Shown: one piece after another, positions 1,210 through 25,222 of the stretch | How positions within the stretch are numbered: position 1 is the stretch's first letter | Layout: each line of letters begins with the position of its first letter | IMG/VR virus record: IMGVR_UViG_3300027752_000102 | Location: 1 to 25,222 of that record | Direction: 5' to 3' (one strand) | Source of the DNA: a virus | Length of the DNA: 25,222 nucleotides | Position numbers and translations under genes: made by a program | The notes under the pieces: model-generated | Told to the model about the DNA's origin: nothing | Databases searched by the model: none | Seen by the model: only the letters and a program-made list of their open reading frames with translations

Positions 1210-1217
1210 GAGAATAC

Positions 1218-3512
1218 ATGTCAGCACTCCAAGAGATAGTTGATTACCTTGTCAAGAGGGTAGATGGTGTAAGTCCTGCACGTCGAAGACCCCACCTTGC
1301 TGGGCTCTTGATGAGATTGTCTGGAAACTATAGTGATCGTATGGAAGGGTACGTTGTTAAGAGTATCTCTATACTTCAAATGCAATTCACTAAAGACACC
1401 AGCGCAAGTCCAGCTGGTACAACTACACTGACCAACGCATCTACTAAGATAGGTCAGAATGTTGGTAAAGAACTAGACCGAGAGCCCCTCCCTTGGGGCT
1501 CTGTGGTGTCCATAGGAGACCTGTTTGTAGAAGCCTTGTACAACCTTGGGTTCATCGACTTGTCCTACGCTAAGACCCGTAACAGCTGCCATGTGGTGTC
1601 TGCATCACACAGGTGGTATGAGTTAGGTGTGATACCTGAGAGGGGTGGGAGCTTTCCTTTGGCCTCTACCAGTATCATAAGACCTAGGGATATCTCTGGT
1701 ATGATACAACATATCAATGGTGTTCACAGGCCAGTTATAAAAGGTAGAGTAGAGGGAGATCCAATAGACCCCTATGCACCTTGGGTACAAGCCCTTAACA
1801 AACTACAGCAGACTGCTTGGAAGATAAACAAACCAGTCTACAATGCAATGATTGAGAACAAAGAGTTGTTCTTATCCACTGATCCTATCAAAGACAATGA
1901 TGCTAAGGAGCTTAAACGTAGGAGTAAGATGGTTGAGTGGGCATTCATATCAGAGAAGGCACGTAAACTATCAGAGCTAGAAGAGTTCTATCAGTACCTG
2001 GATGTAGACTATCGTGGTAGATTCTATTACTGTGAAAGCTTTATGAACTTCCAAGGATCTGATTTAGCTAGGGGCTTGTTCAAGTTCCAACACTCAAAGC
2101 CTATGACTGAGAGTGGCTTGCAATGGTTAGCCATACACACAGCGTCTGTCTTCAACATGTCTTACAACATCGATGAGATACCTGAGTGGTGTACATCAGA
2201 CTACAAAGAACACCTTGAGGGTGAAGGGTTAGATAACATATCTGTTGACAAGATGACCCTAGAAGATCGTATCAGTTGGACTAATGAGTACATGGATGAA
2301 ATAATAGAGGCCGGTAAACAATCACAGTTCTCTGAAGAAGCTGAGAAGAAAGTGTCCTTCCTTGCTGCTTGTGTTGAGTGGTATGAATTTGACTGTGCTT
2401 ACAGGGACAATCGTATCCACATGACTAGCTTACCTATACCTGTTGATGGTAGTAACAATGGTTGGCAACACCTAGGGGCAATCTCTAAGGACGAACAGAC
2501 TGGTGAGTTAGTTGGACTGATCCCCTCAGAGATACAGAAAGACTTCTATGTACAGACAGCTAAAGAGATGATTGATCTGTGTAAGGATGATCGGCTCAAT
2601 GGTATCTTGTCCAGTATGCCTATGAAAAGAATACGCAAGGGTATATCCAAGCGTGGCTCTATGACTAGGGCATACTCTGCAGGGTCTAAGAAGATCGCTG
2701 AGAACATGTTCTTTGATTGTAAGTCAGAGGACTACCACACAGAGTATGGTATCACACAAGATGACTGTACTAAGTTATCTAAACTGCTGATCAAAGCAAT
2801 TGATAAAGTATGTCCAGGCCCACTGTCTACTATGAGTTACCTACAGAACCTAGCGATGTATCAATTAGGTACACATGTAAAGGTAGACTCAGAAGGATAC
2901 GAAGCTAACACTGAGTATCGTAGCCTGTCTAAGATACGTGACACTCTGATGAAGAAGAACTTCAAGACTGATGAAGATCTTTATGAGCTTAACGATGTTG
3001 TGATTAAACTTAAAGAGTTCACGACAAGTCTTAAACATGGTAAGGGTGAGGATAGGATTGAGTGGAGTACACCTTCAGGGTTCCATGTGATCTATGAGAA
3101 ATGGATCATGCAAGATAGGAAAGCTAGAGGCCGCATCAAAGGGTATGGAAATAAGACAGGTCAGGTTACACACGTAGCCCTTGTCCCTACACGTATGCCC
3201 GATAGAAGAGGTTTCATCTGTGGTATGTCACCTAACTACATACACTCTATGGATGCTAGTCATATGGCTTTAGTTATCTCTGAGTGGGATGGCTGCTTTG
3301 CAGCTGTGCATGATAGCTTCAGTACTCATGCTAGTGATGTGAATAGACTACTCGACCTAACCAAACAAGTATTCATACGCATGTATGACTACGATAATTA
3401 CTTTGAGGTTATACGTAACTTCATCACAGATGCTGAGGATGATGTGGAACAACCTACATTAGGCAGCTTAGATATAAAGGAGATTGAAAACAGTGACTAC
3501 TTCTTCGCGTAA
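1218..3512 (+). CDS. T7-like single-subunit DNA-directed RNA polymerase (764 aa)
   Basis: This is a phage-encoded single-subunit RNA polymerase expected to transcribe phage middle/late genes. Visible motifs are DYRGR (D264 to R268, the DxxGR motif), motif A VDGSNNGWQH with catalytic Asp410, motif B K478-x7-Y486 inside SKRGSMTRAYS (same spacing as T7 K631/Y639), the SPNYIHSMDASH element near the C-terminus, and motif C VHDSF with His698-Asp699. The protein ends in YFFA, recalling the FAFA terminus of T7 RNAP. It has 764 residues against 883 in T7. The DxxGR arginine is at 268 rather than 425, so the N-terminal promoter-contacting domain is about 157 residues shorter. A short N-terminus is also known for the N4 RNAPII type. 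The start is ATG at 1218, preceded by AGGAGA that overlaps the primase/helicase stop. The 3' end overlaps the next small gene. Confidence 0.96.
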   Translation: MSALQEIVDYLVKRVDGVSPARRRPHLAGLLMRLSGNYSDRMEGYVVKSISILQMQFTKDTSASPAGTTTLTNASTKIGQNVGKELDREPLPWGSVVSIGDLFVEALYNLGFIDLSYAKTRNSCHVVSASHRWYELGVIPERGGSFPLASTSIIRPRDISGMIQHINGVHRPVIKGRVEGDPIDPYAPWVQALNKLQQTAWKINKPVYNAMIENKELFLSTDPIKDNDAKELKRRSKMVEWAFISEKARKLSELEEFYQYLDVDYRGRFYYCESFMNFQGSDLARGLFKFQHSKPMTESGLQWLAIHTASVFNMSYNIDEIPEWCTSDYKEHLEGEGLDNISVDKMTLEDRISWTNEYMDEIIEAGKQSQFSEEAEKKVSFLAACVEWYEFDCAYRDNRIHMTSLPIPVDGSNNGWQHLGAISKDEQTGELVGLIPSEIQKDFYVQTAKEMIDLCKDDRLNGILSSMPMKRIRKGISKRGSMTRAYSAGSKKIAENMFFDCKSEDYHTEYGITQDDCTKLSKLLIKAIDKVCPGPLSTMSYLQNLAMYQLGTHVKVDSEGYEANTEYRSLSKIRDTLMKKNFKTDEDLYELNDVVIKLKEFTTSLKHGKGEDRIEWSTPSGFHVIYEKWIMQDRKARGRIKGYGNKTGQVTHVALVPTRMPDRRGFICGMSPNYIHSMDASHMALVISEWDGCFAAVHDSFSTHASDVNRLLDLTKQVFIRMYDYDNYFEVIRNFITDAEDDVEQPTLGSLDIKEIENSDYFFA
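3476..3482 (+). promoter_or_regulatory. Ribosome binding site choosing a GTG start
   Basis: AAAGGAG lies inside the 3' end of the RNA polymerase gene. It ends 10 nt before a GTG at 3493 and only 1 nt before a TTG at 3484. The spacing favours GTG 3493 as the start of the downstream gene. Confidence 0.6.
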
Positions 3513-11414: not shown

Positions 11415-14400
11415 CTAAGATACCATACCGGATATAATGTATTCCATCATACCGCTTCGACCACTAGCTGCACCATTTTTAATATACTCTTTCTTCAGAT
11501 CGGGGTCCATTGCTTGCCAATCCTTGTAAGAGTCTGTGCTCATTAGCCAAGATGAGACTTGAGTGTCGCTCATATTAGCCAACCCTTCCTTACCACTAGC
11601 AGCTGCAGCATTCTTAATAGTCTGTAAGAAAGTTGTAACATTGGCTATAGGAACTGGGATCGGGTTACCATCCTTAGTTTCACCAGGTAAGAAGAAGTTT
11701 TGTGCATCGGTAGTGTTAGATTCTACCCAAGCCCTTGAGAAATAATCACTCAACCTAGTTGGTTTCTTACCAGACCGAGCATCGACCAGTGCTTCTTTAT
11801 AAGCTTTTTCTACAAGCTCTTCCATCTGCTCTAGTTCCATCCCATTCTCAATAGCAAACGTAACAGCTTCCCTTCCAATTGTTTCCTTTGCAATACGTAG
11901 TTCTGAAATACCAGCCTTCTCTTCAGTGTTTTTACTTGGATTCAAATTATCTAGGGATGTTACAAGAGACTCTACATTATCCCTTATTGTTTTCCTGTAG
12001 GCAATATTAGCTGCTGTTTTAGGAGCAAATCTACCATCTTTGGTAAGTGTTCTTACATCAACCTGCTTATCACCATCATACCAATAGTTACCATCACCCA
12101 CCTTCTTTTGAGTTAAAGTGATTTCCCTACCTGTTTTTCTATCATACATGGTCATTGGCTGAGCACTAGTAGGTACTGCAGGAAGACCCTTAGTTACAAG
12201 ATCACCGAAGTCCATAGATTTCTTAAAGATTGCAAGACTCTCTTTAGTGTGTTTACCTTCAAGCGCAACCTTTTTATAGGTACCCTCTTTAGCATCAACT
12301 CTAGCAATGTAGTTCTTACCCGCAAAGGCAAGAGCTTGGTTACCATTTAAACCAGTAGCACGACCACCAAGGTACATGATAGCAGCCCTAGCAAGTTCCT
12401 TACTGTCAAAGAGATCCCCGAAGACACCCTTGAGCATAGCCATTGCACCAGATACCTCGGGGGTTTTCTTACCACCCTCAGCCGCTATCCTAGCAGCTTC
12501 TGCTTTAGCTTTCGCTTCTGCATCGGCGGTGATTGCTTCCTGTGGTGTCAGATTAACAATAGCATTACCATTAGCATCTAAGACATTTCCATTTGACCCT
12601 ATACTAAGCTTAGGACCACTGGTCATTCCAGGAGGTTTTTTAGTTTTTTCTTCTGTAGATAACCCCAAGGCTTTCAAAGCTGCAACACGAGCAACTTCTG
12701 CCATCTCCTGCTCATTCCTTATAATACTTGCCCTGTCATTATCTGCAGCAGTATTAACTGCATCTATTTGGCTTTGAGATTCATTAGCAGTTGCTAAGTT
12801 AGCTGAAGCTGTTGCAAGACTTTCCTTAGCATTCTTACCCATCTCTACGTACTCTGCAACTTGTTCTGCTGTAGCAGCACTTCTAATACCAGCTTCAACT
12901 TCAGCAAGTTTTTTCTTTGCCTGCGCAATAGCTTCTTCTGCAGACGATATTTGATTAGCTACTTTAAGGTTAGCTGTGGGGTTAACCTTGGCTTGAGGTA
13001 ACCCAGCTATGACAGCAGCACCATTAGCCAGTTCTGAAGGTAAACTACCTGCAATATCTGATGATTCTATAGGTGGATAATCTTGAAAAGGAACACCAGA
13101 TAGTTCAGCAGCAATCCTCAGCTCTTGATTCTTTAAAGAACCTTCACCACCAAATGTTTTACCCCCTTCATCTGCAACTGATTGCATTAATCTGTTACGT
13201 TGAAGCTCACTAGCAAGTCTGACTTGAGTTTCTTCCCAGTCAAAATCAGCACTGGTTGGTTCAAGAGTACCGGCCTCAATAGCAGCCACACGATCTGGGT
13301 GACCAACATCAAGATCAGCAGCAGGGTTTGGTATCCTACTATTTATCATATCTTCAACCAAACTAGGAACACCATCACCCATAGGCACATTACCAGCCAT
13401 CATCCTATTAGAGTTCATAATTGAAGCCGGTACATTGTAATCAACCAACTCATCTAAGCTCGTCATCGATGGTGTGAATGCCCCTGTGATAAGGTTAGAT
13501 ACCTTAATGTGTTCAGGTGATCCTGCAACTAGGTTTTCACGAAGATCAATCAACCTTTGCTGGGCTGCAGCTCTACGAGAAGTATCATCACCAGTCTGTC
13601 CATATCCTTCAGAGCCCCCAAGTTCCCTTGGATCACTGATCTCTCGAACACCTTGACCATTAGTGAATATATTACCTTGACCAAATGTCTCAGCACCTAA
13701 ACCTGATCCTGGTTTTGGAACACCAAATCGTAGTTGTTTGGTTTCAAATTCTGGATTATCTGCAGGGTTTGGTATCCTACTCCTTATTATGTTATCAACC
13801 ATATTAGGAACACCATCACCCATAGGTACATTATTAGACATCATCCTGTTAGTATCTTGCATAGAGGCTGGGATATCATAGTTAATCAACTCCTCTAAAC
13901 TTGTCATCGATGGGGTAAATGCACCTGTGATAAGGTTAGACACCTTGATGTGTTCAGGTGATCCTTCCATTAAGTTCTCACGGAGAGTGATTAACCTCTG
14001 TTGAGCCGCAGCCCTACGAGAAGTATCATCACCAGTCTGACCATACCCCTCAGAGCCCCCAAGTTCCCTTGGATCACTGATCTCTCGAACACCTTGACCA
14101 TTAGTAAATATATTACCTTGACCAAATGTCTCAGCACCTAGACCTGATCCTGGTTTTGGAACACCAAATCGTAGTTGTTTGGTTTCAAATTCCCTATTAA
14201 TATTACCAGATGAGCCTTGTAGTAATGACTCATCAGTGTTAACCGCTGGCATTGGTATTAGATCAGGTGAAATCCTATTACCCACACTAGGATCTGCAGT
14301 TTGCGGAGGTAAATCAGAGTTATTAGTGATAGGGGGCGGCATCTGACTCATCTCTATCTGTGGGGGTACAAACATTTGAGGCACCTGATCTATCTTGAGG

Positions 14401-15731
14401 GCTGCTTGATCAAACTTAGTTAAAGCATCACGCTCATTTCGTTTAAACCAAGCATTGTCAACATCATCTTGAAGCTTACGTCGAGCCATTTGATCTATAG
14501 ATAGCCCACCTGTATTTAAATAGATAGAACCACCCATGTTAGCACCTACCACAGCTTTCTCTTCAGCATAATTAGTAGAATAATCATCACCACGAAAGGT
14601 AAAGGTACCTCCCGCTCCCATGTCAGAACGAGCGTTACTAAAAGCATCTGCAAAACTTTGAGGTTCTGGTGGAGCTTCTTGCATCTGTGGGACTAGGTTT
14701 TCTGGACGAGCTTGTGGCATAGTAGATATTGCAGGTGCTGAAGTATTTGAAGTACTCGGAGCATTGCCCATACTAGGAACATTGGGTTTTGCAAAGTCTT
14801 CTTGATTAGTAATACCTAAAGCATTTCCAATTCCACCAAAGAAATCACCAACAGCCCCAAGGTTTCCTACACCATCAGACCCACCACCACTAAAAAATCC
14901 TGGTACAGGTTGTGCAGATGCTGTTTGGGCTACAACTTGGGGAGTTTCTTCAGGGTTTACATTAAAGCCAGATATCCCAGATCTCGCTGAGCGTATAGCA
15001 TCTCTAGCTTCTTGTATGCTATGTTGAGAGGCATTACCTTCACCGTATCTGCTTGTTCCAGCTTTACGTAAAGTCCCATTTACCATGACATCATATGGAA
15101 GTGGTGCCGAAGCCCACTCTTTTGCAAGTTCCATCAATGCTAATTCTTCATCTACGTCACCGCCCATCAAGTACTCCCCAAGTATGGGCCTTTTTTGAGT
15201 GGCTAAATATACACCAGCTTTATCTTGAAAGTCAGGCGTAAAAAGGGTGTCTCCAGAAACCCCTAAACCATTGACAACTTCTGTTAGCGTTGTCGGTATG
15301 ATTTGAAATTTACCCACAGCAAAAAGCTTATCAGCGCCTGTTTTACTTTGAGCTTCTATAATCTCATTAATGGTCATTTCAGATAGCTTCTTACCTTTGT
15401 AAGTGGTTTCCATCTGAGACCCTATGATTTCACCATTAGCTGTTCCACGATTACTTGAGTTGTAACCTCCTTCACCACTGCCTATGAAATCTAAAAGGGG
15501 TTTAAACCTGTCTTGGATAATAGGGGCTTTAACTCCACCAGTACTACCGTCATTATATTTTTGAATACCACCACCCATGTTTTTCATTGCACGATGCTGT
15601 AAACCTGCGCTATTCATTTGCTCTATTACAGGGGCAAACATAGTTGATGCTTCCTTGTTGAGGACAAATTCCCCAGGTGTTAGCATCGCAGGTACAGTAT
15701 CCCTATTAGTTGGATCTGTTTTATCGATCAT
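11415..15731 (-). CDS. T7 gp16-like ejection protein with N-terminal peptidoglycan-lytic domain (1438 aa)
   Basis: This is probably the virion protein that opens the cell wall during DNA ejection. Residues 14-24 carry VPAMLTPGEFVLN, a signature common near the start of phage tape-measure/internal proteins. Residues about 60-215 look like a lysozyme/lytic transglycosylase domain: FIGSGEGGYN with likely catalytic Glu87, a TINEIIEAQ helix, then GKFQIIPTTL near residue 140 and a Q-D-K-A-G-x-YLATQ element. A Pro/Gln/Ser-rich linker follows, then two tandem copies of a 147-residue unit (about 514-657 and 661-804), an Ala/Glu/Lys-rich coiled-coil region (about 935-1045) and an unassigned C-terminus. 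The start is ATG 15731 because AGGAGA sits 5 nt upstream and the upstream gene stops 2 nt before it; a TTG at 15803 has no good site. T7 gp16 (1318 aa) also has an N-terminal transglycosylase. Confidence 0.82.
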   Translation of the reverse strand: MIDKTDPTNRDTVPAMLTPGEFVLNKEASTMFAPVIEQMNSAGLQHRAMKNMGGGIQKYNDGSTGGVKAPIIQDRFKPLLDFIGSGEGGYNSSNRGTANGEIIGSQMETTYKGKKLSEMTINEIIEAQSKTGADKLFAVGKFQIIPTTLTEVVNGLGVSGDTLFTPDFQDKAGVYLATQKRPILGEYLMGGDVDEELALMELAKEWASAPLPYDVMVNGTLRKAGTSRYGEGNASQHSIQEARDAIRSARSGISGFNVNPEETPQVVAQTASAQPVPGFFSGGGSDGVGNLGAVGDFFGGIGNALGITNQEDFAKPNVPSMGNAPSTSNTSAPAISTMPQARPENLVPQMQEAPPEPQSFADAFSNARSDMGAGGTFTFRGDDYSTNYAEEKAVVGANMGGSIYLNTGGLSIDQMARRKLQDDVDNAWFKRNERDALTKFDQAALKIDQVPQMFVPPQIEMSQMPPPITNNSDLPPQTADPSVGNRISPDLIPMPAVNTDESLLQGSSGNINREFETKQLRFGVPKPGSGLGAETFGQGNIFTNGQGVREISDPRELGGSEGYGQTGDDTSRRAAAQQRLITLRENLMEGSPEHIKVSNLITGAFTPSMTSLEELINYDIPASMQDTNRMMSNNVPMGDGVPNMVDNIIRSRIPNPADNPEFETKQLRFGVPKPGSGLGAETFGQGNIFTNGQGVREISDPRELGGSEGYGQTGDDTSRRAAAQQRLIDLRENLVAGSPEHIKVSNLITGAFTPSMTSLDELVDYNVPASIMNSNRMMAGNVPMGDGVPSLVEDMINSRIPNPAADLDVGHPDRVAAIEAGTLEPTSADFDWEETQVRLASELQRNRLMQSVADEGGKTFGGEGSLKNQELRIAAELSGVPFQDYPPIESSDIAGSLPSELANGAAVIAGLPQAKVNPTANLKVANQISSAEEAIAQAKKKLAEVEAGIRSAATAEQVAEYVEMGKNAKESLATASANLATANESQSQIDAVNTAADNDRASIIRNEQEMAEVARVAALKALGLSTEEKTKKPPGMTSGPKLSIGSNGNVLDANGNAIVNLTPQEAITADAEAKAKAEAARIAAEGGKKTPEVSGAMAMLKGVFGDLFDSKELARAAIMYLGGRATGLNGNQALAFAGKNYIARVDAKEGTYKKVALEGKHTKESLAIFKKSMDFGDLVTKGLPAVPTSAQPMTMYDRKTGREITLTQKKVGDGNYWYDGDKQVDVRTLTKDGRFAPKTAANIAYRKTIRDNVESLVTSLDNLNPSKNTEEKAGISELRIAKETIGREAVTFAIENGMELEQMEELVEKAYKEALVDARSGKKPTRLSDYFSRAWVESNTTDAQNFFLPGETKDGNPIPVPIANVTTFLQTIKNAAAASGKEGLANMSDTQVSSWLMSTDSYKDWQAMDPDLKKEYIKNGAASGRSGMMEYIISGMVS
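13321..13751 (-). repeat. Tandem repeat unit B (441-bp period) inside the gp16-like gene
   Basis: This is the second copy, in coding order, of an in-frame tandem duplication with period 441 bp (147 codons). Two landmarks give the same offset: gcagggtttggtatcctac at 13321 and 13762, and ggtttcaaattc at 13740 and 14181. The stretch 13607-13751 is almost identical to 14048-14192, with only a few substitutions visible; the other half is more diverged. No insertion or deletion is seen. Confidence 0.93.
13762..14192 (-). repeat. Tandem repeat unit A (441-bp period) inside the gp16-like gene
   Basis: This is the first copy, in coding order. Both copies encode a unit that begins EFETKQLRFGVPKPGSG and ends SRIPNPA, including GGSEGYGQTGDDTSRRAAAQ and VPMGDGVP. 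Divergence is concentrated toward the C-terminal side of each unit, which suggests either older duplication with local homogenisation or selection on the N-terminal half. Confidence 0.93.
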
Positions 15732-15732
15732 A

Positions 15733-17106
15733 TCATTCTCCTGATAGTGGTGACTTCTTTTGTTTGGGATAGGGGACTTTCCCCCCATAATTAAATACTC
15801 CAAAGAGTTTACCTAGGCCAAGACCAATCCCAACAGGTCCGAGTGCTGCCATCATACCTGCACCAAGACCTCCGGTAGCAGCTGTGGCAGCGGTACCACC
15901 TAAAGCAGATCCAAGAGAACCCATCATTCCTCCCTGAGCTGCTAGAGAAGAAGCTGCCGATCCAATACCTTTATCAACAGCACCCATAGCGAGTTTAGAA
16001 CCAATCTGATCTAAAGCGTTAGGTTGTTTAGGTTGAATCTTAGCCTGCATCGCTTGACGCTGACGTATTTCATCTTCACGTAGACCAGTGTTAGCTACAG
16101 ATATACCACCTGTGTTCAGGTAAGATAGTGGACCTGCTGGTGGGTTATTACCAATATTATTATGACTAACCTTACCACCTGTATTTCCAACAGCTGAATC
16201 CCAGCCAACAGATCTATTTGATTTTAAGTTACTACTATCAAGAAGTTCTTTCAGAGCCCTGTTTTGATCCCTGTCACCACCAGAGCTTTGGGGCGCAACA
16301 TATGGAGCAACATATGGGGTAGATGTTGGTGTGGGTTCGTAAGTGCTTATCTCTGGGGCCAATGCGGCTAGGAAAGAAGATCCAGGTAATAGTCTTACAA
16401 GAGCATTCTCATTAATAGCGTTATTTAAACCACTGGTAATGCCACCATAAGCATCTTTGATAGCACCAGTAAACCCTGTTGTAGGATCGTTTTGATTGTA
16501 ACCACCCTGAATATTTTTAATACCAGAAGAAAGCATGGATCTTGCAGCTATCTCTTCTGGAGACATATTTGCTGTAGAAACATTAGGATTATCAGCATTC
16601 CGTTCAGCCCATGCAGCAGCCAAATCTGCGTTATAACCTGGATTATCCTCTGGACGAGCCCCTGATATATTACCATCAGCATCTACTACACCATATCGTA
16701 AATCATTTTGATAGTCGTTAAATGCGTTATCTATATTTACGTGTGCTACATCTTTGTGACCACCATAAGTAGTTTTGTTACCACCGCCTGATCTACCAGC
16801 AGTAGTCTGTGTAATATTCGTGTTAATAACATCTGCTTCATTCATAATAGAGTTTTGAATTGATTCGGTTAAACCAGAAGATGCTAGGGATCTCCTCAGT
16901 GCTGAACGAGATTCTGCAAGTGATTTATAATCAGGGATATCCCCACCACCACTGCCTGTATAAGACAATGGACCGGAGACACCCCCAGAACTACCACCTA
17001 AGTAGCTCTGAATAGCTGCAGCTGCATTACCACCCTGAGGTAGACCAGTGTTGACTGCAGGTTGAACCACACCACCCTCTTGATACTTTTGAATTATACG
17101 CCTCAT
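15733..17106 (-). CDS. Internal virion (ejection) protein, Gly/Ala-rich C-terminus (457 aa)
   Basis: This is a likely structural protein of the internal core or ejection apparatus, judged by position between the other internal proteins and by composition rather than by a recognised family. It starts RRIIQKYQEGG and is rich in Gly, Ser, Asn and Ala. It has a Pro/Thr segment around residues 255-275. A YLNTGG motif at bases 16105-16122 is shared with the downstream giant protein. The C-terminal ~50 residues (about 382-432) are Gly/Ala-rich and hydrophobic, consistent with a membrane-inserting hairpin, followed by a basic tail VPYPKQKK. The start codon overlaps the stop of the upstream gene as TAATG, and its own stop is one base from the next ATG. 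T7 gp15 occupies a similar place but no sequence similarity is claimed. Confidence 0.7.
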   Translation of the reverse strand: MRRIIQKYQEGGVVQPAVNTGLPQGGNAAAAIQSYLGGSSGGVSGPLSYTGSGGGDIPDYKSLAESRSALRRSLASSGLTESIQNSIMNEADVINTNITQTTAGRSGGGNKTTYGGHKDVAHVNIDNAFNDYQNDLRYGVVDADGNISGARPEDNPGYNADLAAAWAERNADNPNVSTANMSPEEIAARSMLSSGIKNIQGGYNQNDPTTGFTGAIKDAYGGITSGLNNAINENALVRLLPGSSFLAALAPEISTYEPTPTSTPYVAPYVAPQSSGGDRDQNRALKELLDSSNLKSNRSVGWDSAVGNTGGKVSHNNIGNNPPAGPLSYLNTGGISVANTGLREDEIRQRQAMQAKIQPKQPNALDQIGSKLAMGAVDKGIGSAASSLAAQGGMMGSLGSALGGTAATAATGGLGAGMMAALGPVGIGLGLGKLFGVFNYGGKVPYPKQKKSPLSGE

Positions 17107-18189: not shown

Positions 18190-19406
18190 TTCTTTAACTC
18201 CGTAGTTTCAAGGTATCTGTTTTGTATAGTTGGACTTGAAGGGGAACCCCCATTGAGTCGTGCATAAACTGAAACAACCCTAGTTCCTGCGGTAGGTGTT
18301 AATGTCATAGCTAAGGTTACCATTTGTTCGTGGTATGTGTGCGTAGTTCCATCTGTATAGAATCCAGAGGATGCATTGAAGACACGTTGAGACACTGTAT
18401 CAAGTCTAATGTCAAATTGAACCGAGTTAGATCCATTTAAACCACAGTTAAACATGATTGATGTAAGGTTACCATTAGAAGTAATAGATACATCTTTTAT
18501 TAACTGATATGTTGAAGTTGGTGTTATACTAGCTGCAGTAAAAGCAGCAAACTTATTACTCACAGCACCATTAGTAATCTGCCCTGTGTTAACTACAAGA
18601 TTGCTGATTTGAGCAGAAGATGTAATTATATTTGTTGAAGCTAACTTAGTCCCAGTGATAGTGCTATCTGTAATGTTACTAGCATCAATACCAGTAACAG
18701 TGTTCCCATCAAGTTCAAAGTCACCATTTTCAAATGTTACAATACCTGAGAAAGAAACACTTACCTTTGGGGCATTACCAGTAGATGCACTAGTTGTAGC
18801 TGCCCCAGTATCATCTGTAAATATAAAATCAGAGAAGTAAACTAAAGTTGTTGAAGTTGCACTAGCTGTTGGGGCAGTCTCTGACCACCCTGAAGTTAAC
18901 CCAGAGAGTGCAAGGGTTGCCCATGTAACTGTAGCAGTTGGAGAACTAGGTGCTCCAGATGAAGATGGGAAGTACACCCTCCTAGAAAGAGATCTAGGTG
19001 CTGGGGAACCATCATTACCATCTTCAGACAATAGAGCTACAGTGTTCCAAGTGTTTGAATCAGTTATTGTATCTTCTAAACTTGATACATATCTAAATGT
19101 AATCCAAAGGTACTTACCACCTGATGCTGGGATTGCCCCCACCCATCCATTATTAGCTGCAATAGTTACACTTCCAATGTTTGTATAGTTATATGAAACA
19201 CTGGTAGGTCTAGTTGGAGCTGTGTTTGTTGTAGTCCTTTGGTACAGATAGATCGCAGTGTTACCTGTTGGTCCAGATGAGCTTGATGCAGAAGATGATC
19301 CTTGAGATCCTGGTAAAGCACTACCCATATTAATAGCTTGGGTTATTTGATTTGTCCAAGAGTCTAAGGTTGCATCTCCGGTAAATGGTGGTCTGATAAT
19401 TGCCAT
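18186..19406 (-). CDS. Tail fibre-like / tail tip structural protein (406 aa)
   Basis: This is a Ser/Thr/Asn-rich beta-structured protein typical of phage fibres. The N-terminus MAIIRPPFTGDATLDSW is followed by a Ser-rich linker (about 33-46) and a module with IYLYQR, NNGWV..IPASGGKYLWIT and a late LSEDG, a pattern often repeated in tail tip and fibre proteins. The middle reads DSTITGTKLAS..IITSSAQISNLVVNTGQITNGAV, a low-complexity beta-repeat common in fibre stalks. The C-terminal ~100 residues look like an independent beta domain. It starts at ATG 19406 with AGGGAGG upstream and forms a TAATG overlap with the nozzle-like gene. Receptor specificity cannot be told from sequence. Confidence 0.72.
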   Translation of the reverse strand: MAIIRPPFTGDATLDSWTNQITQAINMGSALPGSQGSSSASSSSGPTGNTAIYLYQRTTTNTAPTRPTSVSYNYTNIGSVTIAANNGWVGAIPASGGKYLWITFRYVSSLEDTITDSNTWNTVALLSEDGNDGSPAPRSLSRRVYFPSSSGAPSSPTATVTWATLALSGLTSGWSETAPTASATSTTLVYFSDFIFTDDTGAATTSASTGNAPKVSVSFSGIVTFENGDFELDGNTVTGIDASNITDSTITGTKLASTNIITSSAQISNLVVNTGQITNGAVSNKFAAFTAASITPTSTYQLIKDVSITSNGNLTSIMFNCGLNGSNSVQFDIRLDTVSQRVFNASSGFYTDGTTHTYHEQMVTLAMTLTPTAGTRVVSVYARLNGGSPSSPTIQNRYLETTELKK

Positions 19407-21160
19407 TATCGACTGCCTCCCTTACTGACTTGAATCTGATAGCCTGTAAGGTTCCAATCAAGCGTCACTTCATTAGATTGACTTTCAATCCTATAGTTTA
19501 AAAACCGACCATTAAACCTAACATCTGCTTTGTATTCAAGAGAGGTGTCAAAGGGTATTGCAGCGTTAGATGAGAAGTTAATTGACTCACCAACCTTATC
19601 ACTGCCATCATACTTTATGTTAACTTTAGAAGGACCATCAAATAATAGAGCCATGCCAGACACACTCTCAGTATCAAACTCAGGGGTTACTGCCATACGT
19701 TTACGTTCTAGGAAAGCACCTGATAAGAATGAGCTACCATCTACACCAACTAGTTTTGTAGGTGCTGAAAGAAGTAGGTCTCCTCTAATTGCAGACATTG
19801 CATTTGTAGCTGTTGGTAAATCTCTCTTAGTCCACACATTATTCCGGTAGTTCCACACGTATATGATTGAGACAGACCAGAACCAAATCTCATCATACTT
19901 ATTAAACCTAACACTCTTAATTGTTTCGTTATTACGAAAGAAGTTCCTCACACGCCCATCAGAAATAGATGAGATAGATCCAGGATGCCCTGCAAACACA
20001 TAGCAATCATTGCTTCCATACACAATATGCTTACCATCTACTTCGATAACACCATCTGTGTTGTTAACCCCGTAGTTGTCAGTTACTGTAGCAATTTGAA
20101 AGGGTACAACAGGTGAGTTGGTTTGCTGCATAGAGTGTATAGATGAGTCTGTATATACATAAAGCACACCTTGCAGCTCTGCCATATCTTGAATAGTACC
20201 TGTAGAAGCTAAGACAAACTCGTCTGCAGTGTTAGCTCCCCTCTTAAATGGATTCCAATTCTGAGGTATAAATCCTGGACCTGCAACATCAGAGGTTCTA
20301 ACAGTACCTGTAAGGGTACGACCACCTGTTTCCTTTAGGTTACCTGCAACTATGAGGTTTCCATAAGATCTTACAACACCTGCTGTAACAGTGGACACAG
20401 GGGTGGTTGTTACAAATACATTGTAAACAGTACCACCAGAAGATGTGTCTGGTGTAAAGTTAAAAAGATTGTTTCCGTAATTAACCCCAGAGATTGTACC
20501 AATATTCACCAATGTTGCATCCGGAGATACAACACCTGCAGAGTTTATGGTAACTGTTTCGGTGTGTATTGGTGTAGATATGTTACGAGGCAGTGCTGTA
20601 ATCTTAATTGATATTGAGTTACCTGCACCTGGATCTGTAAACACTGTATTCTTAACTTCAATAGAACCCGAAGAACCATCGTGCTCAAAAGAAGTCATCT
20701 CTTCTTCAATGGCATAGGAATCCCATCCAGGCAATGGAGTAACTCCCACAGCATCATCCCGTAGGAAGACAGGTGTGGAGTTACCATTGTTAAAGATGAT
20801 GTGGTAACCACCATTAAACAAAGTATGTTGCCAATCACCACCAGTTACTCCAGTGTTAACACCACCCTGTGCAGAGACAACAGAAAAACTATCATCGTAT
20901 ACTGTGAAGGTTGTGTTAGTGCTGTTATCTGTGATGACTACGTATCGATCCCCAAGTGTTGAGGGCCAAAATGCAACGTACTTAACGTTTGTAAGTGATA
21001 ATAGTTTGTCCACATCGGATGGGAACCTTTTAATACCCTTTCCACTAAAACGAACATTCTTAACATCTGAGAAGACATTAGGTGGTAGCGACACTGCTGG
21101 AGTATCTTGCACAAGACCCGCTGATGCTAGATCTGTAATCGGTATAATCTGTTGTGGCAT
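19406..21160 (-). CDS. Tail nozzle-like protein (T7 gp12 / P22 gp10-type), 584 aa
   Basis: This is a likely component of the distal short tail. The N-terminus (PITDLASAGLVQDTPAVSLPPN followed by NVRFSGKGIKRFP) is the pattern with which podovirus nozzle or stabilisation proteins begin. The middle is beta-rich with propeller-like strands, including MQQTNSPVVPFQIATV, DGVIEVDGKHIVYGSNDCYVF and a tryptophan-rich WFWSVSIIYVWNYRNNVW segment. The C-terminus (NGRFLNYRIE....WNLTGYQIQVSKGGSR) matches the end of the same class. In T7 and P22 such proteins form a hexameric nozzle below the adaptor. GGAGG precedes the ATG at a good distance. It follows the ribonucleotide reductase gene after 27 nt. Confidence 0.75.
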   Translation of the reverse strand: MPQQIIPITDLASAGLVQDTPAVSLPPNVFSDVKNVRFSGKGIKRFPSDVDKLLSLTNVKYVAFWPSTLGDRYVVITDNSTNTTFTVYDDSFSVVSAQGGVNTGVTGGDWQHTLFNGGYHIIFNNGNSTPVFLRDDAVGVTPLPGWDSYAIEEEMTSFEHDGSSGSIEVKNTVFTDPGAGNSISIKITALPRNISTPIHTETVTINSAGVVSPDATLVNIGTISGVNYGNNLFNFTPDTSSGGTVYNVFVTTTPVSTVTAGVVRSYGNLIVAGNLKETGGRTLTGTVRTSDVAGPGFIPQNWNPFKRGANTADEFVLASTGTIQDMAELQGVLYVYTDSSIHSMQQTNSPVVPFQIATVTDNYGVNNTDGVIEVDGKHIVYGSNDCYVFAGHPGSISSISDGRVRNFFRNNETIKSVRFNKYDEIWFWSVSIIYVWNYRNNVWTKRDLPTATNAMSAIRGDLLLSAPTKLVGVDGSSFLSGAFLERKRMAVTPEFDTESVSGMALLFDGPSKVNIKYDGSDKVGESINFSSNAAIPFDTSLEYKADVRFNGRFLNYRIESQSNEVTLDWNLTGYQIQVSKGGSR

Positions 21161-21187
21161 CGCTACCTCCTATTTTAATCTAATAAC

Positions 21188-22942
21188 TCACGAGCATTCT
21201 CGCTGCCCAGTAGTCGGATCAAAAAAACACGCCTCTGCTTTCTCTCCATCCGCCTCTGAAGGGATTTCAATCTGGCCCTCTGTCTCCGCTTCCGCTTCCA
21301 CGGTCTCATTGAAGATTCCGTAGCGTTTGCCTGTGATCCTAAATGTGGTACAGCCCTTGGCCCCCTCTTTCCATGCCGTTTCGTAAACACGTTTGAAATC
21401 GTCATAGCTAACATCACCTCCCACATTACAAGTTTTAGAACAAGCACTGTCAATGTAGTGCTGGGCTAGAGTCAAAACAGCTAAGTGTTCATAAACTGAA
21501 ATGTCATCTGCCTTTCGTCCTGCAACTCCTCTTGCAAAAGCATAGTCCTTAACGTTGTCGTAACGTGGTCCGTCAAAAGTCTGGATGGTACGCTCGTATG
21601 AATGTGAAAAGACTGGCTCGATTCCTCCACTAACATTATCTGCCACGAGGGAGATTGTCCCAGTAGGCGCAATAGATGTGAGGTGGCTGTTCCTAATACC
21701 ATGCTTTCGAATCTCCTTCTGGACAAATGCTGGAAGTGTACGAATAAAATTACCCTTTAAGTATTCTTCACGGTAGAGTGGGAATGCTCCTTTCTCTTCT
21801 GCAAGCTTTGCTGATGCGTAGTAGGTGTTGTCTCTGAGACAGGCGAAGACTTTTTCCATCCATCGCAGGAACGGCTTAGAGCCATACTCGAATCCAAGCA
21901 TCTCGCCTGCATTAGCAAGACCTGTAACGCCGAGTCCCATTCTCCGCTTATTCTTTGCCTCATCTTCTTGCTCCCTTAGCGGATAGATAGTACGATCAAC
22001 AACATTATCCATGGCACGAACAATGTGAGGTATGTCATCTTTAAATTGATCAAAGTTAAATGTGTATTCATTGCTTTCATCTTTAATTACATACTTAGTG
22101 CAGTTAAAAGAACCTAATAGACAAGCACCATAAGGGGGAAGAGGCTGTTCACCACATGGGTTAGTAGCACTGATGTCCTCACAGTAGTATAAGTTATTCA
22201 TTTCTTGAATACGATCAATAAATAAGACACCAGGTTCAGCCCAATCCCATGTAGACTCCATTGCTAGATCCCAGATCCCCTTTGCAGAGACAGTCTCATG
22301 TACAATACCATCAAAGACCAGATCAAAGCTATCGTCTTCCTTAGAGAGAGCTTCCATGAACTTATCAGTAATGCCTAATGATATGTTAAAACCAGTGAGC
22401 TTATCAGAATTACGTTTAGCAGTAATGAAGTCAACAATATCCGGATGGTCAATACGGAGTACACCCATTTGAGCCCCACGCCTATGACCGGAACTACTAA
22501 TTGTTTGGCATACTGCATCAAAGATAGACATAAAAGAGATAGGCCCACTTGCTTGGCTCTCCAATGACTTGATTTGAGTACCTCTAGGGCGTACTTTAGA
22601 GAAATCATAACCTATACCACCCCCTCTTCGCATTGTTTCTGCTGCTTCTTTAGCACGATCCATAATAGAATCCATACTATCTTTAATCTCACCTGATACA
22701 AAACAGTTGTAAGCAGTAACAAGCTTACCTGCACCCATCGCAGACTGTACTCTACCGGCTGGGAGGAATCGTTGTAGACCAATGATATCTTCTAGTATCC
22801 ATTGGTGTTCCACACTATCACACAAAGATCGTGCAATACGCTTAATCTTACCATCAAAGGTCTCTCCCTTTTGTCTGTACTTCATTTCATCTAATTCTTG
22901 AGACAAGGGAGTAGATGGACCCTCATAAGTAATATTGCGCAT
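21188..22942 (-). CDS. nrdJ: Class II (adenosylcobalamin-dependent) ribonucleoside-diphosphate/triphosphate reductase
   Basis: This enzyme reduces ribonucleotides to deoxyribonucleotides for phage DNA synthesis. The catalytic loop NPCGEQPL gives Asn261, Cys263 (thiyl radical) and Glu265. Cys80 (AYNCFVSG) and Cys274 (ten-stranded barrel, ACLLGS) fit the redox pair, with the 11-residue Cys263-Cys274 spacing known from class II enzymes. GGGIGYDF (107-114), RRGAQMGVLRIDHPDI and APTGTISL (about 423-430) are also class II hallmarks. The C-terminal Cys572 and Cys583 fit the shuttle cysteines that take electrons from thioredoxin-type donors. At 584 residues it is compact compared with many bacterial NrdJ. 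There is no small-subunit gene nearby, as expected for a B12-dependent enzyme. It sits within tail genes on the late strand, after a 97-nt gap that may hold its own promoter. The start is ATG 22942 with GAGG upstream. Confidence 0.94.
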   Translation of the reverse strand: MRNITYEGPSTPLSQELDEMKYRQKGETFDGKIKRIARSLCDSVEHQWILEDIIGLQRFLPAGRVQSAMGAGKLVTAYNCFVSGEIKDSMDSIMDRAKEAAETMRRGGGIGYDFSKVRPRGTQIKSLESQASGPISFMSIFDAVCQTISSSGHRRGAQMGVLRIDHPDIVDFITAKRNSDKLTGFNISLGITDKFMEALSKEDDSFDLVFDGIVHETVSAKGIWDLAMESTWDWAEPGVLFIDRIQEMNNLYYCEDISATNPCGEQPLPPYGACLLGSFNCTKYVIKDESNEYTFNFDQFKDDIPHIVRAMDNVVDRTIYPLREQEDEAKNKRRMGLGVTGLANAGEMLGFEYGSKPFLRWMEKVFACLRDNTYYASAKLAEEKGAFPLYREEYLKGNFIRTLPAFVQKEIRKHGIRNSHLTSIAPTGTISLVADNVSGGIEPVFSHSYERTIQTFDGPRYDNVKDYAFARGVAGRKADDISVYEHLAVLTLAQHYIDSACSKTCNVGGDVSYDDFKRVYETAWKEGAKGCTTFRITGKRYGIFNETVEAEAETEGQIEIPSEADGEKAEACFFDPTTGQRECS

Positions 22943-23039
22943 GTATATCCTCGTGATATTGTTATATGTTAATTAATCCGAAGGGGGATCCTTAGACCCC
23001 CCTATAAGGAACTTAGAGAATTACAACTCATGTAGTACT
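22943..23039 (-). promoter_or_regulatory. Largest leftward intergenic gap: hairpin and possible promoter upstream of the reductase gene
   Basis: This 97-nt gap is the longest non-coding stretch in the late block. On the minus strand it contains CTTATAGGGGGGTC (from 23008), whose TATAGGG core recalls T7-type promoters. It overlaps a G5/C5 hairpin (22983-22987 with 22997-23002, 9-nt loop), followed by an AT-rich segment with the palindrome TTAATTAA and then the reductase GAGG ribosome site. A separate inverted repeat, CTTAGAG 23012-23018 with CTCTAAG 23038-23044, spans the end of the preceding gene. The hairpin lacks a good U-tract, so it is a weak terminator at best. Function is uncertain. Confidence 0.35.
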
Positions 23040-23447
23040 CTAAGGCTTCGTAGGCCAAGTTACATCTGGGAACCCAGCTTGCTGTGGGACATCCAAGAGG
23101 GCAGTACGATAAGTAGCCCACTCAGCCTGCTTGTCAGATGATAGAGCAGCCCAGCGAAGTGGGTTGCCCACAAAGGCATCAACCTCAAGTAACAGTTGGT
23201 CACGTTGGCTGCGTACCTGTGCCGCCGCTGTTGCTGCTAGTTCTTCAGCAGTAGGAGCAACGTATGCTGCGAAGTCTGTACCAATGAGAGCCATGACTGC
23301 ATCGTTGTCGATGGTTGTGTCAGTGTCATAATCGGTCAGAAGGTAGGGTATCCAGCCGTAGTCTGGGTGGTTAATCTCAACGTCAATACTAGTGTTAGTA
23401 GCGTTCATTGATTGTGCGTTACGGATTTGTGTGATTGTTATGCTCAT
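23040..23447 (-). CDS. Tail fibre assembly / tail assembly chaperone-like protein (135 aa)
   Basis: The C-terminal half (RSQRDQLLLEVDAF..NPLRWAALSSDKQAEW followed by ATYRTALLDVPQQAGFPDVTWP) matches the recurrent pattern of phage tail fibre assembly chaperones: an RD-x-LL-x-x-D helix, then a YR-x-x-L-x-DVP-x-Q-x-G-x-P-x-V-x-WP ending. The N-terminal half (SITITQIRNAQ, DYGWIPYLLTDYDTDTT) is a small beta region. It follows the Mtd-like fibre gene and presumably helps that fibre to fold or attach. The ATG at 23447 is chosen because GAGG lies upstream and the codon overlaps the preceding stop as TAATG; a TTG further upstream at 23522 would run into the fibre gene. Confidence 0.75.
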   Translation of the reverse strand: MSITITQIRNAQSMNATNTSIDVEINHPDYGWIPYLLTDYDTDTTIDNDAVMALIGTDFAAYVAPTAEELAATAAAQVRSQRDQLLLEVDAFVGNPLRWAALSSDKQAEWATYRTALLDVPQQAGFPDVTWPTKP

Positions 23448-24049
23448 TATGATATCCTCACCCATAAGCCTATGCCACCTGTGTTGCTTGAAATATATGA
23501 ACAATGAGACATAGCCCTCCAAGTACCCGACACTGAAGTTGGCGTTACATTAGTATCCCAAGCGACATTGTCATATAAAGTTCCATAACTCGCTTGGTTA
23601 TTTCTAAATATACTTGTAACTTTAAGGCTAGAAGCTGTGGCACCCGGTGCATAATTAGTGTAGTTAGCTGGTCTACCTATAATGTAAGTCCCCACAGCGC
23701 CGTGGTCTGTGCTAGAAGTCGGAGCCGCTGCCCAAGTTAATCCGCCAGTATTGCCTGACTGTGCTGTGAGCATGTAGCCATTAGTTGGGGCATTAGATAC
23801 TTGCATCTTAGCTTCATTTACGGCTTCAGCAGCTAATTGAGACTGAGAGATTGTACCTGTAATACTAGCCGCAGGAACCCCTGATACGCCCAGAGTGTAA
23901 TATCCTAAGCTAGTCCACGCAGTCGAGCCTGTGCCTGCCTTTATCTTACTCGTGTCTGTCTCTAAACCCAATTCACCTTGAGCAAGTGTAGGATTGGCAG
24001 ATGTCCAGTTAGCAGCCGTATCACGGCGTATTTGAATTTTATCAGCCAC
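23447..24049 (-). CDS. Tail fibre protein with Mtd-like N-terminal domain (200 aa)
   Basis: The N-terminus DKIQIRRDTAANWTSANPTL followed by AQGELGLETDTSKIKAGTG..WTSLGY is the signature of the N-terminal domain of the major tropism determinant and many other phage fibres. A short helical or coiled segment (SQLAAEAVNEAKMQVSN) follows. The C-terminal domain (about 110-200) ends with GTWRAMSHCSY..TGGIGLWVRIS, a terminal pattern common in receptor-binding fibres. The start is GTG 24049: GGAGG at 24058-24062 is 8 nt upstream, and the gene then overlaps the preceding stop. The alternative ATG at 24064 would put the ribosome site inside the coding region. Confidence 0.78.
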   Translation of the reverse strand: MADKIQIRRDTAANWTSANPTLAQGELGLETDTSKIKAGTGSTAWTSLGYYTLGVSGVPAASITGTISQSQLAAEAVNEAKMQVSNAPTNGYMLTAQSGNTGGLTWAAAPTSSTDHGAVGTYIIGRPANYTNYAPGATASSLKVTSIFRNNQASYGTLYDNVAWDTNVTPTSVSGTWRAMSHCSYISSNTGGIGLWVRIS

Positions 24050-24380
24050 TTGCCGATCCTCCATTTATAGTTTGAGCAGTTGTATAAACACTGTTGGCAA
24101 AACCACCATCTGTAATGTTATATGCTACTGCTGATTCAAAGGTAGTGTAAGCTACTGCTTCCAATACATCGTTAAGTGCAGCACCAGTAGCTAGGATAAC
24201 ATCCGAACCATTGGTTGCTGTATAATCAGCCGCTGCGAGTTTTACCCCATTGAGGAACACATCAAGAAATCCAGGAGTGAATCCGCCCGTTGGAAAGCTA
24301 GTTTGATTTGCAGTGCAAGTAAATGCATCTCTTGTCTGTGTTGCCTGTGGGACGGGCTGTACGCCTATGTATCCTGACAT
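24042..24380 (-). CDS. Small tail-fibre-associated structural protein (112 aa)
   Basis: The sequence MSGYIGVQPVPQATQTRDAF followed by TPGFLDVFLNGVKLAAADYTATNGSDV is a recurring pattern in phage tail regions, in which a short beta domain (residues about 18-90) carries a YLNG or FLNG turn. Related segments occur as N-terminal or stand-alone modules with fibres in marine phages, so a role as fibre base or adaptor is inferred. The C-terminus is low-complexity (AYNITDGGFANSVYTTAQ) and resembles the start of a fibre stalk. AGGAGA precedes the ATG. It is 10 nt downstream of the glycine-rich fibre gene. Confidence 0.68.
   Translation of the reverse strand: MSGYIGVQPVPQATQTRDAFTCTANQTSFPTGGFTPGFLDVFLNGVKLAAADYTATNGSDVILATGAALNDVLEAVAYTTFESAVAYNITDGGFANSVYTTAQTINGGSASG
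24058..24062 (-). promoter_or_regulatory. Ribosome binding site choosing a GTG start
   Basis: On the minus strand, GGAGG stands 8 nt before GTG 24049 of the Mtd-like fibre gene, and 24064 ATG lies upstream of the site itself. This supports the GTG start. Confidence 0.6.
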
Positions 24381-24390
24381 TATGTGTCTC

Positions 24391-25222
24391 CTATACTGTT
24401 AAGTAACGGATGATAACGATACCTGAGCCGCCGTTACCACCGCTGCCGCCTGCGCCTCCGCCACCGCTGCCCGTATTCACCGTGGCATTACTACCATTGT
24501 TCCCACCTGTTGCGCCATTTCCGCCGCCTGCTTGACCAGTACCTGCATTGTTTGCCCCTGCGCCACCGCCGCCGCCTGCTCCGGTAAAGAGAGAGTTCCA
24601 AGAACTACCATTGCCTCCAGAACCACCTGTGTTTCCGCCACTTAATGCAGGGCCACCAATAGAACTTGAGCCACCGCCACCGCCACCGCCCTCAGACAGT
24701 CCAGCTGCATAGCCGCCGTTGCCACCATTATTTCCTTGACCTGCTGTACCTAAACCAAAGTTATCATTGGTGTTATCTCGTTGACCGCCGCCGCCACCCG
24801 ATCCTCCATCTAAACCTTGATGGCTTGAACGTGATCCACCACCGCCGCCACCTAAAGATATAATTGAGTTAAAGGAGCTATTAGCACCAGTAGTCCCTTT
24901 TGCATCATGCGAAGTGCTACCTGCGCCACCGGAACCTACCACAACAGGGAAAGTACCAGTGCCTATAGTTGTAGTAGATACACCCCTAAATCCACCAGCG
25001 CCGCCGCCAGCACCTTCCCCAGCATTGTAAGATGGGCCAAGGCCAGCGCCACCTCCACCGCCACCAGCAACAACTAGATATTCAAAAGAATTACCACCAG
25101 TAGTTACTACAAGGTTTGAAGACGAGGTAAAAGTGTGTACCGTATATATTCCAGATGTTGTGACAGTACCACCTGTAGCAGCTACTGCTGGTTTAACAGG
25201 ATCAGTACCATCTCCCACGTTA
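24391..25222 (-). CDS. Glycine-rich tail fibre/adhesin, 5' truncated by window edge
   Basis: The frame is open to the window edge (Asn precedes the GTG at 25218), so the N-terminal part is missing. The visible ~276 residues start with a small beta motif (GGTVTTSGIYTVHTFTSSSN, then EYLVVAGGGGGG) that introduces glycine-rich domains in many phage and bacterial surface proteins. About 190 residues of glycine runs separated by Ser, Asn, Ala and Thr follow, closing with GGSGIVIIRY. Such polyglycine domains can form collagen-like or polyglycine-II packed adhesin tips, as in T-even-type gp38. A receptor-binding role is inferred. The high Gly content explains the local GCC/ACC-rich, GC-richer DNA on the plus strand. 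Confidence 0.78.
   Translation of the reverse strand, partial: NVGDGTDPVKPAVAATGGTVTTSGIYTVHTFTSSSNLVVTTGGNSFEYLVVAGGGGGGAGLGPSYNAGEGAGGGAGGFRGVSTTTIGTGTFPVVVGSGGAGSTSHDAKGTTGANSSFNSIISLGGGGGGSRSSHQGLDGGSGGGGGQRDNTNDNFGLGTAGQGNNGGNGGYAAGLSEGGGGGGGSSSIGGPALSGGNTGGSGGNGSSWNSLFTGAGGGGGAGANNAGTGQAGGGNGATGGNNGSNATVNTGSGGGGAGGSGGNGGSGIVIIRYLTV

Follow-up and report, generated by a model that had tools for sequence, protein, structure and literature searches.

The window, by which we mean the whole 25,222-nt stretch of viral DNA analysed here, carries on its minus strand a gene, nrdJ (21188..22942), that is assigned by TIGR02504, PF02867, fold and catalytic residues to the dimeric class II (adenosylcobalamin-dependent) ribonucleotide reductases (RNRs). 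Its frame fits these limits exactly, with an ATG start, 584 amino acids and no internal stop. The order of products along this strand is glycine-rich, small, Mtd_N, chaperone, NrdJ and nozzle-like, followed by large virion-type proteins. The fibre cassette (23447..25221, minus) is made up of a glycine-rich fibre protein cut by the window end (24391-25221), a small protein (24042-24380) and an Mtd_N fibre protein (23447-24064). A tail-fibre assembly chaperone (23040..23522, minus; PF16778 E 1.2e-14, phrog_4628) lies directly upstream of a conserved promoter-like motif; a TTG start is listed for it, and an internal ATG may be the true start. The next gene downstream of nrdJ encodes a nozzle-like virion structural protein (19406..21160, minus; phrog_3287, E 6.5e-43), a distant homologue of gp43 of roseophage CRP-7 (28% identity), and is separated from nrdJ by a 27-nt spacer containing AGGAGG (21161..21187, minus). 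From the sequence, a Shine-Dalgarno-like GAGGA (22948..22952, minus) can be read 5 nt before the nrdJ ATG, and it is invariant across a 16-row leader alignment.

The plus strand from 1 to 3512 holds the end of a primase-helicase gene and a gene for a single-subunit RNA polymerase (1218..3512; PF00940 185 bits, phrog_414), the presumed reader of the motif, whose best match among phage records is the CRP-7 RNA polymerase (36%). An initial sequence-only reading had described a nucleotide-metabolism gene standing on the late strand between the fibre cassette and the nozzle gene, apart from the replication genes; the chaperone gene upstream, the phrog_3287 gene downstream and the plus-strand genes at 1-3512 bear this out. 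In a near-complete relative, G001, the plus (early) arm encodes MazG, DUF3310, ThyX and glutaredoxin beside DNA polymerase and exonuclease. Elsewhere in the window, a tandem duplication (13321-14192; 441 bp x 2, 86% matches) lies within a 1462-aa minus-strand ORF (11415-15803), and no Rfam family was found in the window at the gathering threshold.

The encoded enzyme

The window protein scored 502 bits against the NCBIfam model TIGR02504 NrdJ_Z (cut-off 400) and 362 bits against Pfam PF02867, while the class I NrdE_NrdA model TIGR02506 (221 bits) and the monomeric RTPR model TIGR02505 (46 bits) each stayed under their cut-offs. Residues C80, N261, C263, E265 and C274, three of them within the catalytic-barrel motif N261-P-C263-G-E265, are invariant among 12 phage homologues and in a 23-row alignment, and we take them to have equivalents in the Thermotoga maritima enzyme. 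Where class I enzymes have a tyrosine pair, the window protein has TT (GCTTFR at 530-535, no YY). The tyrosine pair, which serves class I radical transfer, is a criterion for telling RNR class (PMC6370689), and the same source gives cyanophage P-SSP7 as a case in which a class I RNR was mistaken for class II. A similar mistake is ruled out here, as there is no YY and no small subunit was found: the class I small subunit (PF00268) occurs in 0 of 10 related genomes or records, some of which are fragments, the window's own genome being known as this fragment. By family score, catalytic residues and the absent tyrosine pair, the window protein thus classifies as a dimeric class II enzyme, in agreement with the B12-dependent RNR that had been read from the sequence at the outset.

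An AlphaFold2 model of NrdJ (mean pLDDT 85, pTM 0.85) is an ordinary RNR across residues 4-539; the remainder is a low-confidence linker and the C-terminal cysteines. The first 21 rows of a Foldseek comparison were T. maritima NrdJ, and VIA-align superposed the model on 3o0o, a T. maritima NrdJ structure that holds adenosylcobalamin, with Z 41.2 and an rmsd of 2.0 A over 513 aligned residues. The two proteins (T. maritima PDB 1XJE, 3O0O) have in common the fold over 4-539, the catalytic Cys and the NPCGE motif, at about 30% identity. Use of adenosylcobalamin and dimer formation are predicted from likeness of fold to 3O0O only. Class I alpha chains follow near behind in the fold comparison (Z about 36-40), so fold alone is insufficient to set the class, which is set by the residues.

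The protein ends in C-x10-C plus one residue. This pair, C572/C583, follows or overlaps the low-confidence stretch 541-574 of the model. Residues 572-583 (21194-21229, minus) form a C-x10-C segment with a conserved D and TG in between in 12 of 12 aligned phage NrdJ. A Rhodobacteraceae contig, apparently chromosomal by its ORFs (histidine genes nearby), encodes its own dimeric NrdJ (L146), whose 866 aa include a C-terminal extension with a Cys-rich end that is missing from the 584-aa window protein. The presence of this enzyme makes B12-dependent reduction plausible in such hosts.

The nrdJ gene is under strong purifying selection, as judged from sequence comparison: dN/dS was 0.07-0.10 in six comparisons, in two of which dS was saturated. 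Among 27 contigs with a complete nrdJ and leader there are 20 distinct nrdJ nucleotide sequences.

Conservation of the slot among relatives

Related loci were gathered by nrdJ and, separately, by the nozzle gene, the latter set comprising 56 loci. Close kin by nozzle gene (75-89%) account for 35 of these; six start too near the gene, and NrdJ occupies the slot in 29/29 of the others. Similarly, NrdJ is in the slot in all seven further kin (42-50%). The CRP-7-type loci number 14, of which five are too short, and here a monomeric RTPR occupies the slot in 9/9 of the others. Loci drawn by nrdJ at a minimum of 77% identity (L002-L033) have the nozzle gene downstream in 32/32 cases; the window-clade contigs L013, L021 and L031, plus L029, were obtained through nrdJ only. 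A slot devoid of RNR was seen in 0 of the 36 NrdJ-lineage contigs that were drawn by nozzle gene and reach the slot. In G011 and the G017 group, nrdJ is separated from the nozzle gene by small genes.

Misassembly had been raised as a possible origin of this placement, should relatives carry the gene in the replication cluster. Such an origin is ruled out, since the junction recurs in 29/29 close contigs drawn by nozzle gene, with NrdJ in the slot each time. It is distant kin and other phages that have the RNR in the replication arm, unlike the window's clade.

Comparison with relatives that lack an RNR directly beside the nozzle gene was also possible. The nozzle protein of L127-type loci is 23-27% identical to that of CRP-7, and in 0/13 of these loci does an RNR stand directly beside the nozzle gene, where L139 starts inside the gene and L130 has 325 bp. 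In six of them (L127, L128, L129, L131, L133 and L134) a small gene immediately precedes the nozzle gene, and in G019, the genome of L131, the gene in this place is 62% identical to the window chaperone gene. The G019 RTPR, 56% identical to that of CRP-7, is the second-last called gene of the replication arm, and in L135 an RTPR follows replication-type genes of its own strand and stands about 1.5 kb upstream of the nozzle gene.

A phylogeny against phage and bacterial NrdJ placed the window protein in a clade of 16 phage rows (100/100) in a 35-row tree, with bacterial rows outside. An origin of nrdJ from a host is therefore unsupported. A single viral contig, L034, clusters with bacterial rows, and the branching among the phage subclades is tentative. 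Stop and X letters had been stripped from bacterial rows for this tree, and the L149 row is apparently frame-shifted near its end.

The position of nrdJ could also mean that NrdJ enters the virion, by packaging or during assembly, and is hence made with the tail genes. Position is the one point in favour of this idea; against it stand the predicted fold, an ordinary RNR over 4-539 followed by a low-confidence linker and C-terminal cysteines, and the RTPR of another family that occupies the CRP-7 slot. We consider it extremely improbable.

Motif and leader before nrdJ

A conserved 20-mer, TCTCTAAGTTCCTTATAGGG (23000..23019, minus), lies between the chaperone gene and nrdJ and is a candidate phage RNA polymerase promoter with a predicted start at GGG (23002). 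It ends in TATAGGG, presumably like the end of the T7 promoter, and it was called a promoter from this likeness to the T7 consensus and from its position. All 27 contigs with sufficient sequence carry exactly this 20-mer, at 77 bp (24) or 75 bp (3) before nrdJ, despite synonymous sites in nrdJ that differ from those of the window by 24-53% in the four close kin measured. In close kin the leader is almost fixed from TTCTCTAAGTTCCTTATAGGG to the ATG and the fibre side is freely variable.

The window holds one copy of the motif. Five near-complete relatives of 57-60 kb each contain five copies of a 15-mer core (one mismatch allowed), and 30 Markov resamples per genome contained none. When exact 14-mers were counted without prior choice, part of the motif core was the commonest in G001, as was G017's own motif in G017. 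Three G001 copies precede the terminase gene, the portal stretch and nrdJ; of the other two, one comes before a lone minus-strand gene of the early arm and one points towards the plus-strand genes that lie at the contig end. Copies are mostly upstream of genes on the same strand, and some are inside small, mechanically called ORFs. The lone early-arm gene of G001 (L067; 7038-7430, minus), behind its own motif copy at 7519, is the mirror image of nrdJ in its placement; its product has weak similarity to a terminase small subunit (phrog_74 E 0.001, with a Pfam score under the cut-off).

The motif varies between lineages. G011 has ATCCGTCCCTTATAG in four copies, G017 has GTATAAGTCCCTTTAG in five exact copies and CRP-7 has AGTCCCTTATTAAAAGG in five copies, and in each genome one copy is upstream of the RNR. 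The CRP-7 motif also precedes the RTPR in 4/4 further contigs that hold the RTPR start. The motif differs where the polymerase differs (RNA polymerase identity 56% for G017, 36% for CRP-7), and joint change of promoter and polymerase would give such lineage-specific motifs. In G019 there is a 3-copy 14-mer of unclear direction. Together, these sequence comparisons indicate that the conserved motif is apparently a promoter of a T7-like single-subunit phage RNA polymerase. By comparison, sigma-70 promoters in 19300-25222 showed no excess (11 vs 11.2 in shuffles), and neither did intrinsic terminators over the same interval (3 vs 4.4).

Downstream of the motif, the leader would begin with a hairpin of 8 pairs and a 4-nt loop at the predicted start site (22983..23002, minus), as judged from folding. 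The hairpin is GC-rich, and we presume a resemblance to the 5' hairpin on T7 late RNAs. It has -15.1 kcal/mol, a stability reached by 0.1% of 800 random 32-mers drawn from the window, and its counterpart in G008 has -14.1 kcal/mol. In each of five genomes the nrdJ leader is the most stable of five motif leaders; similarly, the RTPR leader (-12.7) is the most stable among those of CRP-7. The hairpin is weak in G011 (-5.5) and absent in G017, and in four further CRP-7-type contigs it has -4.8 in three and -10.5 in the fourth. Covariation yielded one compensatory pair, in 2 of 13 distinct rows, and one such pair also arose in 140 of 500 shuffles.

The sequence-only reading expected nrdJ to be expressed with the structural genes unless it has a promoter of its own. 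An own candidate promoter was found, and the part of that expectation that fell away is that nrdJ is a mere passenger of the fibre genes, which it need not be because a phage-type motif lies between the fibre module and nrdJ. On the downstream side, a simple scan of the minus strand detected no terminator-like site between nrdJ and the nozzle-like gene, which are 26-27 nt apart among contigs. Two of the marks of a moron are thus found at nrdJ, its own promoter (the motif) and absence at the junction in kin (13 L127-type loci, two of which reach 325 bp or less upstream); a terminator of its own is lacking, so we do not class nrdJ as a moron.

The close linkage to the nozzle-like gene raises the alternative that the promoter serves the nozzle and internal virion genes, with nrdJ as a passenger whose late expression has no function of its own. 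A spacer of 26-27 nt with no terminator-like site would make one RNA common to both genes, and in G017 about 570 bp with two small genes separate the motif from nrdJ, so that nrdJ is not always first in its unit. Motif, hairpin and Shine-Dalgarno sequence nevertheless keep an almost fixed distance from nrdJ, CRP-7 keeps a different RNR behind a different motif, nrdJ is under strong purifying selection, and each of the 36 NrdJ-lineage contigs drawn by nozzle gene and long enough to show the slot has the RNR. We therefore regard a passenger role as unlikely.

The reading that we prefer, with a probability of roughly 70%, is that nrdJ heads a late-arm unit of its own, in which the phage RNA polymerase starts at the motif, and that the enzyme type in the slot has been exchanged in place. 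According to this proposal, the polymerase would start at the motif to give an RNA that begins with the hairpin, and transcription would continue past nrdJ to cover the nozzle gene and the genes for internal virion proteins. NrdJ, with adenosylcobalamin from the host, would make a thiyl radical on C263 and reduce ribonucleoside diphosphates; it would be re-reduced through the C572/C583 tail, probably with the glutaredoxin whose gene relatives carry in their early arm, and would feed DNA synthesis in the phage-polymerase phase. Because another motif copy points into the plus arm, the motif does not establish that nrdJ is expressed later than the replication genes. In evolutionary terms, an RNR unit would have come to the junction of the fibre module and the nozzle gene, and the slot enzyme would later have been exchanged, giving monomeric RTPR in the CRP-7 branch and dimeric NrdJ in that of the window. 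We infer that the exchange ran from RTPR to NrdJ.

Proposed exchange at the slot and comparison with known systems

The region 5' of the leader is itself subject to exchange. CRP-7 and L008 share fibre-cassette DNA over 225 nt at 85% and 103 nt at 91%, and L125 and L020 over 127 nt at 89% and 255 nt at 78%. The RNR unit is thus adjacent to a region in which the CRP-7 type and some window-clade contigs have exchanged DNA. The window's own cassette had no match to the CRP-7-type stretches. In L009-L012 and L017, a 21-27-nt exact match to the CRP-7-type motif was observed just 5' of the native nrdJ motif, about 129-157 bp before nrdJ, and was probably left behind when a fibre cassette was exchanged. 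The host of CRP-7 is an RCA roseobacter, which together with the fibre DNA that some window-clade contigs share with CRP-7 provides an indirect, sequence-based link to alphaproteobacterial hosts.

These observations bring in a further alternative, in which the leader is mainly a recombination linker for fibre-cassette swaps and the RNR lies beside a hot spot by accident. It would account for a fixed leader with variable sequence on its 5' side, for fibre DNA that is 78-91% identical over 103-255 nt between the CRP-7 type and the window clade when RNA polymerase stands at 36% and nozzle at 28%, and for the 21-27-nt matches 5' of the native motif in L009-L012 and L017. However, other copies of the motif are placed away from the fibres, ahead of the terminase gene, ahead of the portal stretch and within the early arm, and the cassette of the window itself is without a match to the CRP-7-type stretches. 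We judge this alternative quite improbable as the main role of the leader, and linker and promoter roles are in any case compatible.

We tentatively suggest that the fibre/nozzle junction may be a dedicated platform for late dNTP supply in this marine podovirus group, into which NrdJ or RTPR is plugged by non-orthologous exchange, although we do not hold this to be the likelier case. The parts of such a platform would be a phage polymerase promoter, a hairpin-capped leader and a replaceable B12-dependent RNR ahead of the tail operon. The dimeric enzyme uses NDP substrates and the monomeric enzyme NTP (PMC12918982, preprint). By swapping the enzyme a phage would thus change the host nucleotide pool that it draws on, NDP or NTP, with the timing of expression held constant.

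Independently of that suggestion, one slot filled by an NDP-using B12 enzyme in one branch and an NTP-using one in another offers a clean natural comparison. Gene position and promoter are as conserved as the enzyme, and the class can change while the slot persists. Phage RNRs serve as markers in virioplankton ecology largely by class, and the slot warns that RNR class does not track phage lineage. Additionally, the motifs can be tested as a set of promoters for a single-subunit RNA polymerase from ocean phages that is so far uncharacterised.

NrdJ belongs to a well-known enzyme family, and there are earlier examples of RNRs among late genes; the novelty lies in the conserved slot, the promoter and the exchange. 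Among the matches listed, the open-licence PMC literature does not describe slot, promoter or exchange. B12-dependent RNRs were reported in all seven RCA phages by PMC6918029, whose consulted portion describes CRP-7 without discussing RNR position and whose main text lacks the word intron. Class II RNRs were likewise reported in 9/10 Autographiviridae roseophages (PMC11092137), and the CRP-822 type is another phage group (PMC12629253).

CRP-7 is the closest cultured genome by RNA polymerase and has the genome plan of the window clade, including the slot between fibre and nozzle-like genes, in which an RNR again follows a repeated motif. The enzyme differs, being a monomeric RTPR with a group I intron in CRP-7 and a dimeric NrdJ in the window clade. 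CRP-7-type RTPR scores far higher on TIGR02505 than on any other model; the uninterrupted protein of L113 has 292 bits for RTPR vs 58 for NrdJ, the TIGR02505 cut-off of 340 not being reached. In CRP-7 (L066) a group I intron (RF00028, 79 bits, 36986-37196) with the ORF gp45 interrupts the RTPR gene (35552-38170, minus), and the record annotates two separate RNR genes. The RTPR genes of L113, L118, L125 and L126 are without this intron, and the CRP-118 RTPR is likewise annotated in two pieces. TerL is 60-62% identical between CRP-7 and each of G001, G011 and G017, and identities to G019 are 38-41%. Trees were built for TerL and RNA polymerase; because the TerL tree is poorly resolved, the order of CRP-7, the window and G019 rests on identities, and the order of the enzyme exchange is one that we infer.

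Other marine phages carry B12-dependent RNRs elsewhere in their genomes. The closest phage records to the window NrdJ (61-62%) are those of CRP-9, CRP-738 and KZY1, whose genes belong to the early strand and are found where the replication arm ends or close to that point, unlike the nrdJ of the window. The RTPRs of ICBM2, CRP-4, CRP-5 and HMO-2011 are 57-59% identical to the CRP-7 type; cobavirus and HMO-2011 RTPR is of the monomeric type, unlike the window NrdJ, and the cobavirus RNR lies in the replication arm (PMC6775973). The closest isolate to the CRP-7 type, CRP-118 (60%), has its RTPR between maturase A and B, among packaging genes, so the slot RTPR need not derive from the replication arm. 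The RTPR of CRP-13 is in the replication arm. CRP-9 and CRP-13 have been put in one group (PMC8528129), and the NrdJ of the former and the RTPR of the latter stand at corresponding places of the replication arm (both gp31). Interchange of the two class II types is thus not confined to the nozzle slot.

Two distant NrdJ matches (L036 10001-12598 and L039 10001-12643) are broken by about 1 kb near C263 (NPCGE); the L036 frame is open across 891 aa, and both are intein candidates. RNR genes among packaging genes were also observed at L225 3971-5710, L230 3974-5713 and L232 4983-7056 (PaMx74, Donnerlittchen; CRP-118). In PaMx74 and Donnerlittchen, which belong to other phage groups than the window, nrdJ stands amid packaging genes (terL/portal), a position different from that of the window gene between the fibre cassette and the nozzle-like gene.
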